From a virus: a stretch of 33,544 nucleotides of DNA. The stretch lies in IMG/VR virus record IMGVR_UViG_3300032116_000774, positions 1-33,544 of that record. One strand, written 5' to 3'. This document shows, one piece after another, positions 3,763-28,220 of the stretch. The notes beneath the pieces were generated by a model that saw only the letters and a list, made by a program, of their open reading frames with translations, ran no database searches and was not told the DNA's origin. Position 1 is the stretch's first letter. Every line of letters begins with the position of its first letter. Made by a program: the position numbers and the translations under genes.

Positions 3763-4320
3763 CTAAAACGGAATCTCGTCATCGTCGGCGGGAGTTGTTG
3801 CTTTGACCGAAGCTTTGCCGTTGCTCGGTTTGCTAAGACGGACAAACGGGATGCCGTCATCCTCGTCCTTAGTGCGCGGTGCTGATTGCGCTGGCTTGGC
3901 GTAGGTCGTTGCCTTGCTCGCGGCGTGGCCGTCATCGTCTTCCGGGGCGATACCGCAAGCCGCCATCAGCGAGTAGCGGCGCGCATAGGTCAGTGCCGAG
4001 CCGTAGCCCTGCGGATCGTTCTTGCTCGCGGGAACGTGCAACGGGCCGCTGCTCATTGTCTCGCCGCTGGAGTGGATGAATACCGTCTCGACCGTCACGC
4101 CGCTTTCGCAGGGCAATGTGCGCTGCATGAGGGCGATGCCGTGCTTGTGCAGGGCGTCGATCACTGCCTCAACGCAAGCGTCGAGTCCTGCATACTTCGA
4201 CTTGAAGTGCGGGTTGGTGTTGGTCTTTAAGGCGGGGCCAAAGTCGGCTTGCGCCTTGACAAAAGCAGATGCGATAGCTTTGCCTATCGTCTGCACTGAG
4301 TTCACTTGTTCTGTGTTCAT
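3763..4320 (-). CDS. ERF-family single-strand annealing protein
   Basis: 185 aa. Recombination mediator that would coat and anneal complementary single strands during phage recombination. Typical ERF motifs are visible: TIGKAIASAFVKAQADF near the N-terminus, NPHFKSKYAGLDACVEAV (37-54), GIALMQ (61-66), GSALTYARRYSLMAACGIAPEDDDG (about 107-131). The C-terminus is a flexible tail with two SSB-tip-like motifs, DEDDGIPF (152-159) and DDDEIPF (179-185). It sits between a resolvase-like nuclease and the SSB gene, an expected recombination cluster. ATG at 4320 is within the 5' end of a GAACACAGAAC motif; a 7-bp GC hairpin lies 11 nt upstream. Confidence 0.88.
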   Translation of the reverse strand: MNTEQVNSVQTIGKAIASAFVKAQADFGPALKTNTNPHFKSKYAGLDACVEAVIDALHKHGIALMQRTLPCESGVTVETVFIHSSGETMSSGPLHVPASKNDPQGYGSALTYARRYSLMAACGIAPEDDDGHAASKATTYAKPAQSAPRTKDEDDGIPFVRLSKPSNGKASVKATTPADDDEIPF

Positions 4321-4331
4321 TGTGCTAATCG

Positions 4332-4357
4332 CGCCGGGGGGTTGCCGCCTCCCGGCG
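4332..4357 (-). promoter_or_regulatory. Hairpin just upstream of the ERF start codon
   Basis: CGCCGGG (4332-4338) and CCCGGCG (4351-4357) form a 7-bp stem with a 12-nt loop in the 49-nt gap between the resolvase-like gene and ERF. On the minus strand the stem ends 11 nt before the ATG and no T-tract follows, so this is more likely an mRNA processing or translation-control hairpin than a terminator. Function inferred only. Confidence 0.35.
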
Positions 4358-4369
4358 TCTTTGTTTGGG

Positions 4370-4756
4370 TTAAGCAGTCGAATCCGCGACCTCCGTTGAT
4401 CGTTTCTCGAACTGCGAAAGTTTTGCGCGTAGGTCGCGCAGTTCGGCCAACACGCGCAGGAAGTCCGATCCCGCGAGAGTCGCCAACCAAGGCTTCGCGG
4501 AAGTCTTGTGCGCGACATAAGGCGGGACGCCAATCGGGCAAGCTGCCTCTGCTTGCTCGTAGGCTTTGCGGACATTGAGCGATTCGACAAATTTCACTTC
4601 GGGCCACCATCCCGTATCGTCCTCGACATCTGCTCCGCCCGCGCCCAAGTGCGCTTGCTTGTAGCCCGCCCGCTCGGCTGCAAAGCCGTAGCCGCGAAGC
4701 TCGTCGCGCCAGAGACGTTCACCGCGCTTTCCCTTCTCGCGTTGTGCGCGGCTCAT
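4370..4756 (-). CDS. Holliday-junction-resolvase-like PD-(D/E)XK nuclease
   Basis: 128 aa. The N-terminus KGKRGERLWRDELRGYGFAAERAGYKQ, then GAGGADVEDDTGWWPEVKFVE, gives the core E13...D43/D46...E53-V-K55 expected for the Hjc-like / VRR-type branch of the PD-(D/E)XK nucleases, and the length fits (about 110-140 aa). It would cut branched recombination or replication intermediates. It lies immediately upstream of ERF and SSB, which supports a recombination role. ATG at 4756 overlaps the upstream small gene by 4 bp and is itself preceded by AAAACA. Exact substrate is inference. Confidence 0.72.
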   Translation of the reverse strand: MSRAQREKGKRGERLWRDELRGYGFAAERAGYKQAHLGAGGADVEDDTGWWPEVKFVESLNVRKAYEQAEAACPIGVPPYVAHKTSAKPWLATLAGSDFLRVLAELRDLRAKLSQFEKRSTEVADSTA

Positions 4757-6097: not shown

Positions 6098-6366
6098 GCT
6101 ACTACCTCCCCGGCAAGTTTGCTGTTGAGGTAACGCTTCTTGCCAACGCTGCGCGGATCGACCTTGCGATACGTCAGCGTTTTGCGTTTGCGCGTTGACG
6201 GCTTGCGCGCGTTTTCCTGCGCCAGCAGTCCGTTGATGCGACGATCAGCGAGTTGCCGCTCGCTGCGCGTCCCGATTTCGCGGCCCCAAGCGAAAGCCGC
6301 TTGAGCCGTTGCAATGAGCAGGACAAATCCAAAGATCGTCATGCCGATTATTTCGTGGGTGTTCAT
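6094..6366 (-). CDS. Small membrane protein with basic cytoplasmic tail
   Basis: 90 aa. One N-terminal transmembrane helix (EIIGMTIFGFVLLIATAQAAFAW, about residues 5-27) followed by a long, strongly basic region (RKPSTRKRKTLTYRKVDPRSVGKKRY). The ATG overlaps the TGA of the RHH regulator gene and is preceded by GAACACAGAAC. A membrane-anchored nucleic-acid-binding protein is possible, but no function can be assigned. Confidence 0.62.
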   Translation of the reverse strand: MNTHEIIGMTIFGFVLLIATAQAAFAWGREIGTRSERQLADRRINGLLAQENARKPSTRKRKTLTYRKVDPRSVGKKRYLNSKLAGEVVA

Positions 6367-6545
6367 GGTTCTGTGTTCTCCGAGGCGGTTGTTTCCGCCT
6401 GCGAAAGTTCGGCGCGGATGATCTCGCGCAACTCGCCGCTGAGGCTTCGGTTGTTGTCGCGGGCACGGGCGCGCAATGCCTCAATCGCCTTAGGCGAGAG
6501 GCCGCTGATACCTATGAAAGTGCGCTTGTTTTGGGTCTTGGGCAT
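6363..6545 (-). CDS. Ribbon-helix-helix (Arc-like) regulator
   Basis: 60 aa. KRTFIGISGLSPKAIEALRARARDNNRSLSGELREIIRAEL is a ribbon-helix-helix layout: a short strand, helix 1 (SPKAIEALRARARDN), turn RSLS, helix 2 (GELREIIRAEL). The family binds DNA as dimers of dimers. The start at 6545 has AAGG 9 nt upstream; an earlier in-frame ATG at 6590 would have no ribosome site and would place codons over the GTTNAAC repeats. First gene of the early minus-strand operon and divergent from a second RHH gene, so it probably controls the lytic/lysogenic choice or represses its own operon. Confidence 0.78.
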   Translation of the reverse strand: MPKTQNKRTFIGISGLSPKAIEALRARARDNNRSLSGELREIIRAELSQAETTASENTEP

Positions 6546-6572
6546 TGTGGGATGCCTTAGGTTTCCGGTAGG

Positions 6573-6653
6573 GTTTAACCCCATGTTCAACCCAAGTAAA
6601 TAGTTTTTTTTCTTTTTTTTTACTTATGCTTGGGGAGGGGGTAAGTTGAACCC
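6573..6653. promoter_or_regulatory. Divergent control region with GTTNAAC repeats and AT tract
   Basis: Between the two divergent RHH genes lie three copies of the palindromic heptamer GTTNAAC (6573-6579, 6585-6591, 6645-6651), each followed by CC or CCC. A 7-bp inverted repeat AAGTAAA (6594-6600) / TTTACTT (6619-6625), flanked by CCCAAG and CTTGGG, brackets a near-pure T tract (6604-6621). This is the expected place for the two operon promoters and for binding of the RHH proteins. No -10/-35 pair can be fixed with confidence. Confidence 0.5.
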
Positions 6654-6878
6654 GTGAGGCACAAGACTAGCCACATCGGGTTCCGGGCCACCCCGGAGCT
6701 AAAGGAGGCCGTTGAGCGCGCCGCGCTGGCGCAGGGGCTAAAGGCTGGCGAATGGATTCACGCCGTGGTCGAAAAGGCGATCAAGACCGGGGTGCTGGTG
6801 CGTCAGCAAACTACCTACGAAGTCATTGAGCCAAAGACTACCTTGCGAGCGGCAGAATCCGCCAAACGATACCTGTAA
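6654..6878 (+). CDS. RHH-type regulator, divergent from the early operon
   Basis: 74 aa from a GTG start; GGGGAGGGGG lies upstream, 12 nt from the start. KTSHIGFRATPELKEAVERAALAQGLKAGEWIHAVVEKAIKTG has the ribbon (SHIGFRATP), helix 1 (PELKEAVERAAL) and helix 2 (KAGEWIHAVVEKAI) of an RHH DNA-binding protein. It is transcribed towards the integrase, so it may act with it in lysogeny or excision. Alternative role: excisionase-like factor. Confidence 0.68.
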   Translation: MRHKTSHIGFRATPELKEAVERAALAQGLKAGEWIHAVVEKAIKTGVLVRQQTTYEVIEPKTTLRAAESAKRYL

Positions 6879-6945: not shown

Positions 6946-8013
6946 ATGAAACACAGTGAGGTTGTCCGACTCGGCGGGTTGTCCTGCCGCCTCTGGCAGT
7001 CTCCGGGCGATGGACGCTGGCGGTGGCATTCCCGGCGTGGAGGCAAACGGGTTCTCAATGCGGCGAAGGAATTGGGCGATGCCAAGGCAAAGGCCAAGGA
7101 ACAGCTTGCCTTGTTGCGAGACGGGCGCAGCCAGCTAGGGAACCTAGACCCCGCTCTGCTTTCCGAGTTCCTCGCGTGGAAGGGGCAGCGTGCCGATAGT
7201 CCCGCAACTGCCGAGGCCGCGCGGCAGTATGTGGCGCACCTTACCGAGCGGAAGGTTCAGACCCGCACCATCGAAGCGGACATCAAGCACTTCACCGCAA
7301 AGCACCCCGGCCCGATTGCCGATGTCGCGGCGGAATCAGTCAAGTCGCACCTTGACTCATTAGGGGTCGGGCCTCGCCGCTACAACAACGTGCGGGCAAG
7401 CCTCGTCTCGTTCTTCGGATGGGCGAGGAAGCAAGGATTCCTGCCCGACACAATGACAGCCCCGCAGCGCACCCATGCCCTGCCTGTGCCGAAAAAGCGG
7501 CCCCCGATCTATACGCCCCCGGAGTTCCGCGCCCTGCTTGCTGCAGTTGCACCGGAGTGGCGGCTACCGCTGGCGATTTGCGGGTTGGCGGGGCTTCGCA
7601 CTTGCGAGGCGGAAAAGCTCCTATGGCGCGAAGTAAAGCTCGGCAAGAAGCTGATCGAAGTCCTCCCCGAAAACGCCAAGAACACCGGACGCCGTAGGCT
7701 CGTCCCGATCCACCCCGCTTTGATGACTTGGTTCCGAAAGGCGGGCGAACACCGGGACGAAGATCACGTTTGCCCGCAAGGGGTGAGGATCGACAACCTT
7801 GCCAAGCGGGTTCGCAGAAAAAAGGTCACATGGGTGAAGAACGGGCTGCGACACAGCTACGGAAGTTATCGCTGCGCGGTTGTGAAATCCGCCGCGCAAG
7901 TTGCGTTGGAGATGGGCAATAGCGAGGGAATCGTCCGCTCAAATTACCTTGAATATGTCGAGCGAGGGACGGCTGCGGTGTGGTTCAAATGTGGTTACTT
8001 TGACCCGTCTTAA
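6946..8013 (+). CDS. Tyrosine-family integrase
   Basis: 355 aa site-specific recombinase that would insert the phage at attP (adjacent, 8048-8108). An N-terminal SAM-like core-binding region (about 67-165: LLSEFLAWKG..., YNNVRASLVSFFGWARKQG) precedes the catalytic domain. Visible catalytic residues: R218 in GLAGLRTCEAEKL, K245 in ENAKNTGRRR, R302-H303 in NGLRHSYGSY, nucleophile Y334 in SNYLEYV. The usual box II His of HxxR is Asn (N299), and the second His/Trp position is Asn (N325, MGNS), which I recognise as a family variant rather than a broken enzyme. A possible terminator hairpin follows directly. Confidence 0.9.
   Translation: MKHSEVVRLGGLSCRLWQSPGDGRWRWHSRRGGKRVLNAAKELGDAKAKAKEQLALLRDGRSQLGNLDPALLSEFLAWKGQRADSPATAEAARQYVAHLTERKVQTRTIEADIKHFTAKHPGPIADVAAESVKSHLDSLGVGPRRYNNVRASLVSFFGWARKQGFLPDTMTAPQRTHALPVPKKRPPIYTPPEFRALLAAVAPEWRLPLAICGLAGLRTCEAEKLLWREVKLGKKLIEVLPENAKNTGRRRLVPIHPALMTWFRKAGEHRDEDHVCPQGVRIDNLAKRVRRKKVTWVKNGLRHSYGSYRCAVVKSAAQVALEMGNSEGIVRSNYLEYVERGTAAVWFKCGYFDPS
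7991..8001 (+). repeat. Candidate integrase arm-type repeat, copy 1
   Basis: GTGGTTACTTT, repeated exactly at 8155-8165. The two copies flank the tRNA-derived core on opposite sides, at a distance suiting arm-type integrase sites. This copy lies inside the end of the integrase gene. Inference from position and repetition. Confidence 0.35.
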
Positions 8014-8017
8014 AAAC

Positions 8018-8044
8018 TTAACCCCCTCATTTTGAGGGGGTTAA
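8018..8044 (-). terminator. Terminator-like hairpin after the tRNA-Leu 3' half
   Basis: A perfect 12-bp stem (TTAACCCCCTCA / TGAGGGGGTTAA) with a 3-nt loop. On the minus strand it is followed by GTTTTTA and begins only 5 nt after the tRNA 3' end, so it would terminate a restored tRNA-Leu transcript. On the plus strand it lies directly after the integrase stop but has no T-tract, so it would be a weaker terminator there. Confidence 0.7.
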
Positions 8045-8047
8045 AGC

Positions 8048-8108
8048 ATACCGGCGGAGGGGGTCGAACCCACACTCCCTTGCGGGAAACGGATTTTGAG
8101 TCCGTCTG
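8048..8108 (-). other. attP core: 3' half of tRNA-Leu(CAA)
   Basis: On the minus strand the segment reads as the 3' half of a tRNA-Leu: anticodon arm ACGGA-CTCAAAA-TCCGT (8105-8089, anticodon CAA), long variable arm TCCC-GCAA-GGGA, T arm with GGTTCGACC, acceptor 3' strand CGCCGGT and discriminator A at 8049. No D arm or acceptor 5' strand exists upstream, so this is not a complete tRNA. A tRNA 3' half next to an integrase gene is the usual form of a phage attachment core, which rebuilds the host tRNA on integration. Phage genes on both sides show that it is attP. Confidence 0.82.
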
Positions 8109-8154
8109 GACAGAGGAAAATGAAAGTCGAAGAACGAATTATGCCGCTCAAGGG

Positions 8155-8178
8155 GTGGTTACTTTTGGGTTACTATTT
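8155..8178 (+). repeat. Candidate integrase arm-type repeats, copies 2 and 3
   Basis: GTGGTTACTTT at 8155-8165 matches 7991-8001 exactly; a related GGTTACTATTT follows at 8168-8178. They lie on the side of the attP core away from the integrase. Together with copy 1 they give the two-arm layout of a lambda-type attP. Confidence 0.35.
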
Positions 8179-8242
8179 GTCATAGACTTTGACACTCCCG
8201 CCGCCCTTTGTGGCGGCAGTAACCCGAAAATGGAAACGCTGG

Positions 8243-25418: not shown

Positions 25419-26012
25419 CTAGGCCGCTTCTGTCAATGGCTTCTGTAAGGTGGTTTTTGCGCTGTCGAATTGGTAGCGGTGCAGCACTTGCGGGATATGC
25501 GCTTCGTCTTCGGCCTCGGCCCACAGATGGCGCAGCCAGAGCACATCCTCGTTGCGACGAACTTGCGGGACGGCATAGGCGCAAGCCAACTCTCGCCGCC
25601 AGACGCACCAAAACCACGGCGGGCGTTTAGTTACTGCGCCGGGGCGAAACGGCTCAATCTCATGCCCCAAGCGGCAGTTGATTCGGCCCTCCGCGCCATC
25701 GACCACGGCCCACTGGTCGAAGGTGATAACGTCCTTGTCGGCGTCGATATTTTGCAGGACGAGTTCAAAATATCCTTCCAAGAGCAAATCATCATCATCA
25801 AGGAAAGTAATGTATTTGCCCCCCGCTGCCCGCAGGAGCTTGTTGCGGGCCTCTCCGATGCCGCACAGGAGGTTTTCCCGCATCATCACGATCTCGACAG
25901 GCTTGCCTGCCACTCGCGCCTCTAGCGACCGGAACAGAGCATTTGCCTCATTCTCCCGCGCCGTAATGGTCGGAATAAGAACAGACAGTGCGGGCGTTGG
26001 TGCGCGTTTCAT
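25419..26012 (-). CDS. GT2-family glycosyltransferase, single domain
   Basis: 197 aa. LSVLIPTITARENEANALFRSLEAR, then EIVMMRENLLCGIGEARNKLLRAAGGKYITFLDDDDLLLEGYFELVLQ, carries the GT2 A-fold with the acidic metal-binding LDDDDLL motif. C-terminal FDQWAVVDG...RRNEDVLWLRHLWAEAE completes the acceptor side. ATG overlaps the methyltransferase stop (ATGA). Transfers a sugar from a nucleotide-sugar; acceptor unknown. Third gene of the cargo cassette after the capsid. Confidence 0.8.
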   Translation of the reverse strand: MKRAPTPALSVLIPTITARENEANALFRSLEARVAGKPVEIVMMRENLLCGIGEARNKLLRAAGGKYITFLDDDDLLLEGYFELVLQNIDADKDVITFDQWAVVDGAEGRINCRLGHEIEPFRPGAVTKRPPWFWCVWRRELACAYAVPQVRRNEDVLWLRHLWAEAEDEAHIPQVLHRYQFDSAKTTLQKPLTEAA

Positions 26013-26551
26013 CGTGAAGCAATCCAGCAACGGCCTAGCGTTTCGTATGCGCCAAGGGTCGCCACGGCGGCGGCAACCTCCGGGTGCGGGATGTCGTGAC
26101 CGCACAAAGTTCCCTGAGGTAGGAGCTTGGGTTTCCATGCGGCGATGTCGCGCAGGACGGCTTCGTGCGTATGCTCGCCGTCGATAAAGACCGCCCAGAC
26201 GCTGCCGTCCTTGAACTTCTTCGCGGCGGCAACGCTGTCGGCTTGGATGGCCGTCACCATCTCCAACACACCTGCCTCGACCAAGGTAGCGTCGAATAAA
26301 TGGCGAAAGCTCCCGCCCGCTTGCTTGGCAATGCTGGTCTGCGTTTCCTCGCTTGCGCTTCCCTTGAAGGTATCGACCGCTACAATGCGGACGTTTTGCT
26401 TGCCGTGCCGCTTTACCTCTTTGGCAAAGTAGCTGATCGAATGACCAACCCATGACCCGACCTCAACAAAGGTTGCGCCATCGGGAATCTGCTCGGCCAG
26501 TTGCGAGTAGAGGTCTGGGTAATCAAACCAGTTGGGAATGTTTGCGCTCAT
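26009..26551 (-). CDS. Class I SAM-dependent methyltransferase (Methyltransf_24-like)
   Basis: 180 aa from ATG 26551 with AAGGA upstream; overlaps the glycosyltransferase gene by 29 bp. DGATFVEVGSWVGHSISYFAKEVKRHGKQNVRIVAVDTFKGSA gives motif I (VEVGSWVGHS) and the acidic end of strand 2 (VAVDTF); WAVFIDGEHTHEAVLRDIAAWKPKLLPQGTLCGHDIPHPEV gives the later D-x-x-H...GG-type part. This branch often methylates sugars. With flanking glycosyltransferases it probably modifies a glycan on the virion or host surface. Confidence 0.8.
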   Translation of the reverse strand: MSANIPNWFDYPDLYSQLAEQIPDGATFVEVGSWVGHSISYFAKEVKRHGKQNVRIVAVDTFKGSASEETQTSIAKQAGGSFRHLFDATLVEAGVLEMVTAIQADSVAAAKKFKDGSVWAVFIDGEHTHEAVLRDIAAWKPKLLPQGTLCGHDIPHPEVAAAVATLGAYETLGRCWIASR

Positions 26552-28220
26552 AGATTTCCTTGGCCCGCTCGTATTCGGCGGGGTCGTTGCCGCGCTCGTA
26601 GGTCGCGTCCATCTTTGCCTTCCCCGCAATCGGGTGGTGGTGATGAAACGTGAGGTGCGGGGCTTCGATGATGGCCCCGGCTTTTGTGGCGCGGGCGGTT
26701 AGATCGTTGTCCGAATAGACGTTGCGGAACTCCGGGTCAAAGAGATGCCCCTGCTTTTCCAGCCAAGGGCGCGTGACGATTGCCAAGGTGATTAGCCCGT
26801 CTTCGCGGATGCCGTCCTTCACGCGAAGGATGCGCGGGGCAAACACGTTGCTGCCAAGGGCGGCGACAATGCCTTCGTCCCATCCGCTCGGCGGCTCAAA
26901 GTCATCCGCGACTTGCACAAGGATGTCGCCAGTTGCGGCCCGCGCGGCAGCGTTCCATGCGCCGACCGAATAGCCGTCCTTTGCGGCGATTACATGGCGG
27001 AATCTCCGCAGCTTGTCCTTGGTTTCCTCGTCATCTTCGTCAATGGCGAAGATATGTTCCACGCGGAACGCATCGCTGGCGCGGGAAAGCCAAAGATTCA
27101 TCGCCTGTATTGCCTGCGACCATCTTCCGCGAGTGGCGTGAAGTAGCGAGATGCGCGGCTTGCCGCCGTGTTGCAACATGGCCGATTCAATCTCCTTTGC
27201 CTTGGCCTCGTTGCCTGCGCTGCGGTAGGCCCATGCGAGCGTTGCGTGACCCTTCCAGCCATAAACGTCCGGGCGATGCGTCCACTCGGGGATTTTCGGC
27301 GCGTCCAGCGTAAGGCAATGCTCTGCCGTCTTTACGGCTTCTTCGGCCTGCCCTGCGTCCATTTGCAAGAGGGCCAGCAAGTGATGCGCCTCGCGGCGGG
27401 TCGGGCAGAGCTTGATCGCTTTTTGCAGCATATCCTGCCCGTGCGCGTTTTCAGCGGCGAGCAGGGCAAGGTTGAGCAGGACTTCGTAGCGATAAACGCC
27501 GTCGAGGGATTCCATGCGTAGAGCTTCCAGCCCGTAGCGCACGGCCTCCTCGCGTCTGCCTAAAAGGTAAAACTCATAGTGCAAGTAGAAGGCAAGGTGC
27601 TGCGCTTCTTGGTATCTCCACCGGAGGATATTAATGTTCCGCTCCTGTGATCCGGTTTTGCTGCCAATCGGTTCATGCACAACCTTGATGTTGCGATTGA
27701 CCCGCACCTTGAGCGATTCGCGTCCATCCTGCGCCACAGGGACGCATTTCTCATGGCATCCGTGGAACCATGCCGCCGTTCCGCTGCGGAATAGCCGCTC
27801 GCGCCAGACGGACTTGCCATGATTAGGCAGGACGTATTCGGCCAGAATCCAATCCTCTGCCGTCTCGGCGCAGGCTTTGCGGATCGTCTCGCCTGTGCCT
27901 TCGGGCAGCACATCATCACAGTCCAACCACATCAGCCAATCCGCCCCGGCTTTCATGCCTAACCGGAAGGCTTCGTTGCGAGCGGCGGCGAAGTCATCGA
28001 CAAAGGGCCATGCGGCGTTTGCGGGGCTATTGAAGTATTCCCCTGTGATGCAACCGCGCTCGCGGGCAATGTCGAGGGTCGGATCGGGCGTTTGCCCGCC
28101 GATAGCGCGGACTACAACAACGGTGTCGGTGACGGAGAAGGCAGCGTCGAGGGCGCGATCAATTAGCGGCTCCTCGTTGCCTGCAATCAAGCAGACGGCA
28201 ATCTTAGGATTATCTGGCAT
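26523..28220 (-). CDS. Two-domain glycosyltransferase with central TPR-like region
   Basis: 565 aa. N-terminal GT2 domain: AVCLIAGNEEPLIDRAL, LMWLDCDDVLP (DCDD at 100-103), NHGKSVWRERLFRS and HGCHEKCVP. Middle (about 205-335): helical repeats (EEAVRYGLEALRMES, EVLLNLALLAAENA, REAHHLLALLQMDAGQAEEAVKTAEHCL), TPR-like. C-terminal second transferase-like domain (about 350-560): SLLHATRGRWSQAIQAM, VADDFEPPSGWDE and YSDNDLTARATKAG, ending HLTFHHHHPI. ATG has TTTTTGACA 16 nt upstream and no Shine-Dalgarno. Heads the cargo cassette. Confidence 0.83.
   Translation of the reverse strand: MPDNPKIAVCLIAGNEEPLIDRALDAAFSVTDTVVVVRAIGGQTPDPTLDIARERGCITGEYFNSPANAAWPFVDDFAAARNEAFRLGMKAGADWLMWLDCDDVLPEGTGETIRKACAETAEDWILAEYVLPNHGKSVWRERLFRSGTAAWFHGCHEKCVPVAQDGRESLKVRVNRNIKVVHEPIGSKTGSQERNINILRWRYQEAQHLAFYLHYEFYLLGRREEAVRYGLEALRMESLDGVYRYEVLLNLALLAAENAHGQDMLQKAIKLCPTRREAHHLLALLQMDAGQAEEAVKTAEHCLTLDAPKIPEWTHRPDVYGWKGHATLAWAYRSAGNEAKAKEIESAMLQHGGKPRISLLHATRGRWSQAIQAMNLWLSRASDAFRVEHIFAIDEDDEETKDKLRRFRHVIAAKDGYSVGAWNAAARAATGDILVQVADDFEPPSGWDEGIVAALGSNVFAPRILRVKDGIREDGLITLAIVTRPWLEKQGHLFDPEFRNVYSDNDLTARATKAGAIIEAPHLTFHHHHPIAGKAKMDATYERGNDPAEYERAKEIYERKHSQLV

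Follow-up and report, generated by a model that had tools for sequence, protein, structure and literature searches.

The virus record analyzed here in full, an IMG/VR entry of 33,544 bp (the window), very probably belongs to a temperate Verrucomicrobiota phage and has its attP in the region of positions 8049–8106, through which it would recombine with the tRNA-Leu(CAA) gene of its host. The kind of site, a tRNA-restoring attP, is already known; the parts of note are a contrast between two sister clades of related phages, clade A (that of the window) and clade B, and a terminator. We consider it rather probable that these sister clades use different crossover loops on one and the same tRNA-Leu(CAA) gene, the anticodon loop in clade A and the T-loop in clade B, with the same arm motif and spacing, and that clade A brings its own terminator. 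The features are collected in Table 1.

Table 1. Features of the attP region (window coordinates).
Feature	Position	Strand	Remarks
Tyrosine-recombinase integrase gene (int), 355 aa	6946..8013	+	convergent with the tRNA piece
Putative degenerate left arm-type site, GTGGTTCAAAT	7980..7990	+	in tandem with the site at 7991; from sequence
Putative left (P) arm-type site, GTGGTTACTTT	7991..8001	+	within the final int codons
Predicted intrinsic terminator, phage-borne, serving the rebuilt tRNA	8012..8044	-	hairpin 8018-8044, U-tract 8016-8012
attP core, 3′ part of tRNA-Leu(CAA)	8049..8106	-	58 nt identical to host attB
T-loop (TTCGACC)	8062..8068	-	last tRNA part retained in clade B; likely clade-B overlap region
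Anticodon stem-loop, ACGGA-CTCAAAA-TCCGT	8089..8105	-	host identity in relatives stops just past the stem
7-bp anticodon loop, inferred clade-A crossover (overlap) region	8094-8100	-	clade A versus B conservation contrast
Putative right (P′) arm-type site, GTGGTTACTTT	8155..8165	+	exact repeat of the left site
Putative second right arm-type site, TGGGTTACTAT	8166..8176	+	11 bp after the first; holds a further copy, GGGTTACTAT, at 8167-8176
Inverted arm-like site	8216..8226	-	found in some relatives

Read on the minus strand from 8106 to 8049, the phage sequence agrees in 58/58 nt with the 3′ part of tRNA-Leu(CAA) at host locus L025 and in four other genomes. It starts immediately ahead of the anticodon stem, runs through the anticodon stem-loop, variable arm, T arm and 3′ strand of the acceptor, and ends with the discriminator base (A); the block of phage/host identity coincides exactly with this interval. 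When the tRNA piece was scanned against 84,980 species genomes, 12 loci were found, all labelled Verrucomicrobia or Chthoniobacter(ales), and each proved to be a complete tRNA-Leu(CAA). Five of them (L021, L022, L025, L026 and L029) matched at every one of the 58 nt, with one match per genome; three of these exact-match MAGs are labelled Verrucomicrobia subdivision 6 and two uncultured Verrucomicrobia. Judged from these sequence matches, the host probably falls within the subdivision-6 group of Verrucomicrobiota. A preliminary description, made from the phage DNA alone, had placed an attP in a tRNA-Leu(CAA) gene and proposed searching host genomes for an identical 3′ half; the five Verrucomicrobiota genomes, together with the adjacent integrase, bear this out. 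Through this exact tRNA match, a set of uncultured phages is linked to hosts in the Verrucomicrobiota.

The same description held that the window represents an unintegrated form, and phage genes do flank the site on both sides. The 5′ half of the tRNA, whose presence would have contradicted that account, is absent from the window: the stretch most similar to the host 5′ half differs from it at 8/27 positions, about the level of shuffled sequence (9). ARAGORN found no complete tRNA anywhere in the window, and Rfam and ARAGORN gave no matches there, as is expected where only half a tRNA is present. DNA matches to phage records were just 44–59 nt long and overlapped the tRNA piece. The contig is probably incomplete.

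A tyrosine recombinase gene adjoins the core, as in the class of tRNA-restoring attP sites, ending 35 bp from the tRNA piece. Its product matches a PHROG integrase (E = 5.6e-27), and a profile of 44 homologues matches PDB tyrosine recombinases (XerC-like, lambda Int and others; best 3.9e-12). Residues R218, R302 and Y334 are invariant across the 44 homologues, and the family carries Asn at positions 299 and 325 (N299 and N325). Tyrosine recombinases usually have His and His/Trp at the matching positions. An AlphaFold model of the integrase, built with 11 close sequences, was poor (pLDDT 49) and was set aside. Thirteen further IMG/VR contigs carry int with a tRNA piece of identical type adjoining it and form clade A with the window. 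Clade B is the sister integrase clade, 53–58% identical to the window integrase, and both clades are supported in the tree (98/94 and 99/95). The attP of clade B holds only TTCGAYCCCCTCCGCCGGCA, the 20 nt from T-loop to discriminator, so that the T-loop-to-A73 piece is the sole tRNA part common to the two clades. Each of 15 host genomes contains a single copy of the pattern TTCGAYCCCCTCCGCCGGYA, located at the tRNA-Leu(CAA) match.

Putative arm-type repeats (GGTTACTTT) lie on both sides of the core. The flanking repeats noticed earlier at 7991 and 8155 were confirmed: the 33.5 kb contain GTGGTTACTTT at these two positions and nowhere else, and the repeats are kept at equal spacing in relatives. 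Since 1.35% of first-order Markov 400-mers contain an exact 11-mer direct repeat within 200 nt, we regard the repeat by itself as moderate evidence for arm sites, to which the spacing kept in relatives is added. Measured from the T-loop, the left site lies 69 bp away in clade A and the right sites 93–96 and 105–108 bp; in clade B the right sites have the same offsets (95–96 and 106–107 bp) and the left site is 58 or 48 bp away, about one or two helical turns nearer than in A. At two clade-B loci, L136 and L138, both flanks of the core have the arm motif altered to GGTTCGATT, and at L138 the left tandem copies corresponding to those of the window read GGTTCGATA/GGTTCGATT. This concerted change fits true integrase-binding sites, and it is possible that the arm sites of these two phages co-evolve with the N-terminal domain of the integrase. 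In a further relative, L009, int has moved, is inverted with respect to the core and lacks its GYF end; an extra 100-aa ORF lies in between, and the terminator is retained. The arm site is retained there although the gene sits elsewhere, which points to more than coding conservation.

We then considered where within the tRNA gene the crossover falls. In clade A, the 37 nt from the 5′ strand of the T-stem to the 5′ strand of the anticodon stem differ by 1.8% (0% when L004 is left out), compared with 42% at fourfold sites of int, whereas in clade B the same segment differs by 41%, compared with 46% at int fourfold sites. The segment is thus constrained in A and near free in B, and the simplest reading of this conservation suggests crossover at the anticodon loop in A and at the T-loop in B. 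The two loops are 32 bp apart, about three helical turns. Anticodon-centred attachment (subsite A) is a standard class among tDNA sites (PMC4383910), and a 7-bp anticodon loop with its palindromic stem resembles the lambda core (PMC8371274). One clade-A phage, L004, differs in both strands of the anticodon stem and in the acceptor strand; for the L028 host allele these strands give perfect pairing, which neither of the other two alleles tried does, and phage halves thus seem to track host alleles.

Conservation speaks for the anticodon loop as the clade-A overlap region, but the comparison of arm spacing with clade B speaks against it. It is conceivable, though in our judgment unlikely, that both clades cross over at the T-loop and that the anticodon and variable-arm part of A is kept identical by gene conversion or by some other need. 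The right arm sites lie about 95–96 and 106–107 bp from the T-loop in both clades, equal spacing that alone would favor T-loop crossover in A too, and the piece from T-loop to A73 is the only tRNA part that both possess. Inheritance without indels would explain the equal spacing as well. Identity of the segment could also be maintained through gene conversion with the host gene. Against T-loop crossover in A stand the near-invariance of the 37-nt segment despite the divergence of int fourfold sites, its near-fourfold level of change in B, and the end of phage/host identity just beyond the anticodon stem, where an anticodon-loop core would be expected to end. If crossover does differ between them, the sister clades offer a natural experiment in how a tyrosine integrase shifts its crossover within one tRNA gene.

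Beyond the tRNA piece lies a hairpin with perfectly paired arms (8018–8029 and 8033–8044; 12/12 pairs), which starts 4 nt past the discriminator base. A terminator with its U-tract on the tRNA side was present at 16/16 clade-A loci scored (three of them second fetches of the same contigs) and at 0/26 host loci, and was absent from clade B. It is thus phage-borne and lies next to the core rather than within it. The hairpin noted earlier therefore exists, but its assignment to the core shared with the bacterium does not hold, as it falls outside the identity shared with the host. Between relatives the terminator loop is inverted (CTCAAAATGAG versus CTCATTTTGAG) or swapped (CTGTAAATCAG), with the stem conserved (window 8018–8044, L003 and L008). 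The hairpin may stop transcription of the tRNA directly after the tRNA piece, and it may also protect the convergent int from antisense reading. A terminator carried by the phage suggests that a prophage can restore sequence beyond the tRNA gene, besides the gene itself.

Prophage junctions in host genomes had also been expected, and here the search came back empty: among 275 genomes of two host orders no integrase exceeded 42% identity, among 388 genomes of the phylum none was found at E<=1e-45, and no lysogen of this phage was detected in either set. The viral contigs contained no complete tRNA-Leu of this type. The lack of lysogens in the genomes searched is what one would see if the tRNA piece were a remnant of past transduction or a disused attachment site; we hold this to be very improbable, given that the piece is almost perfectly conserved across diverged phages, that the change in L004 matches a host, and that integrase and arm sites are conserved alongside it.

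Several host loci showed other arrangements. In genome G139, tRNA-Leu(CAA) is intact, and a displaced 3′ fragment starting at the anticodon stem lies about 78 kb from it on the same strand of the same contig (C25; L094 and L095, at 66908–66964 and 144868–144925). Efflux-like genes are found near the intact copy, and no tyrosine integrase was found on this contig. On our analysis the pair is probably an island in a homologous tRNA gene, unrelated to the phage. Islander-type tDNA islands carry a tDNA fragment in attP, and their integration restores the tDNA and displaces a fragment (PMC4383910); the phage, in contrast to such islands, is known here from its unintegrated form only. Locus L107 (G151, C11: 1513510–1513570) resembles a displaced tRNA-Leu(UAA) 3′ fragment, without a 5′ half before it. 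Ends of host MAG contigs at tRNA-Leu genes hint at polymorphism of the site, but were rejected as evidence: the one pair inspected (G135) overlaps by 77 nt and resembles an assembly-graph break.

Integration was also modeled in silico. When the 5′ half of the L025 gene was joined to the phage 3′ half, as in attL, ARAGORN called a tRNA-Leu(CAA), while no tRNA was called in the reciprocal attR or in attP itself; the tRNA was thus rebuilt, in silico, at one junction. Lysogens should therefore keep the tRNA; the host gene, which the earlier proposal had as interrupted in lysogens, would be divided yet reassembled. The tRNA-Leu(CAA) gene occurs once per genome, so its restoration is probably needed. 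By the account we prefer, integrase made from the neighboring gene would bind the GGTTACTTT arm sites and drive recombination between attP and the host's only tRNA-Leu(CAA) gene. The overlap region is most likely the 7-bp anticodon loop, and the two stem strands beside it would act as core-type half sites. At attL, on the int side, a working tRNA would then arise from the 5′ half of the host gene and the 3′ half carried by the phage, and the host's 3′ half would be displaced to the far prophage end (attR).

Gaia, a mycobacteriophage with tRNA-dependent lysogeny, likewise targets tRNA-Leu-CAA; according to PMC10865867 its core is 8 bp, and in place of a rebuilt tRNA it relies on one that it encodes itself. 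That our phage similarly inactivates the tRNA of its host and substitutes one of its own is extremely improbable, as its core is 58 bp rather than the short core of about 10 bp of such systems, rebuilds the tRNA in silico, and is accompanied by no phage tRNA gene in the window. Clade B, unlike Gaia as described there, retains the 3′ end needed for tRNA rebuilding. The same paper relates the Gaia integrase to that of a tRNA-rebuilding phage, a case of related integrases with different core lengths.

The closest parallel among the systems compared is the attP of mycobacteriophage Omega and Cluster J (attB-11), for which PMC3706429 and PMC10865867 describe a tRNA-Leu-CAA target and a 44-bp core whose left end falls within the anticodon loop. 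Omega and the window share a tyrosine integrase with attP at the 3′ side of int, a core formed by the 3′ portion of tRNA-Leu-CAA, direct arm-type repeats paired on either side, and a tRNA rebuilt at attL, in silico in the case of the window. They differ in host phylum, in core length (44 bp versus 58 nt) and in arm motif (TGCATAC versus GGTTACTTT). In the window, unlike in Omega as described, a terminator borne by the phage separates the tRNA piece from int; the word terminator does not occur in PMC10865867.

Other genes in the window were also recorded. Adjoining int are a gene for a FitA-like/Arc-like ribbon-helix-helix protein (6363–6590, minus strand) and an unassigned 74-aa ORF (6654–6878, plus strand), both candidates for a directionality factor or repressor. 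An ERF-type single-strand annealing protein is encoded at 3763–4590 (minus strand), and two family-2 glycosyltransferase genes and a Methyltransf_24 gene lie within the virion structural block at 25419–28220 (minus strand).
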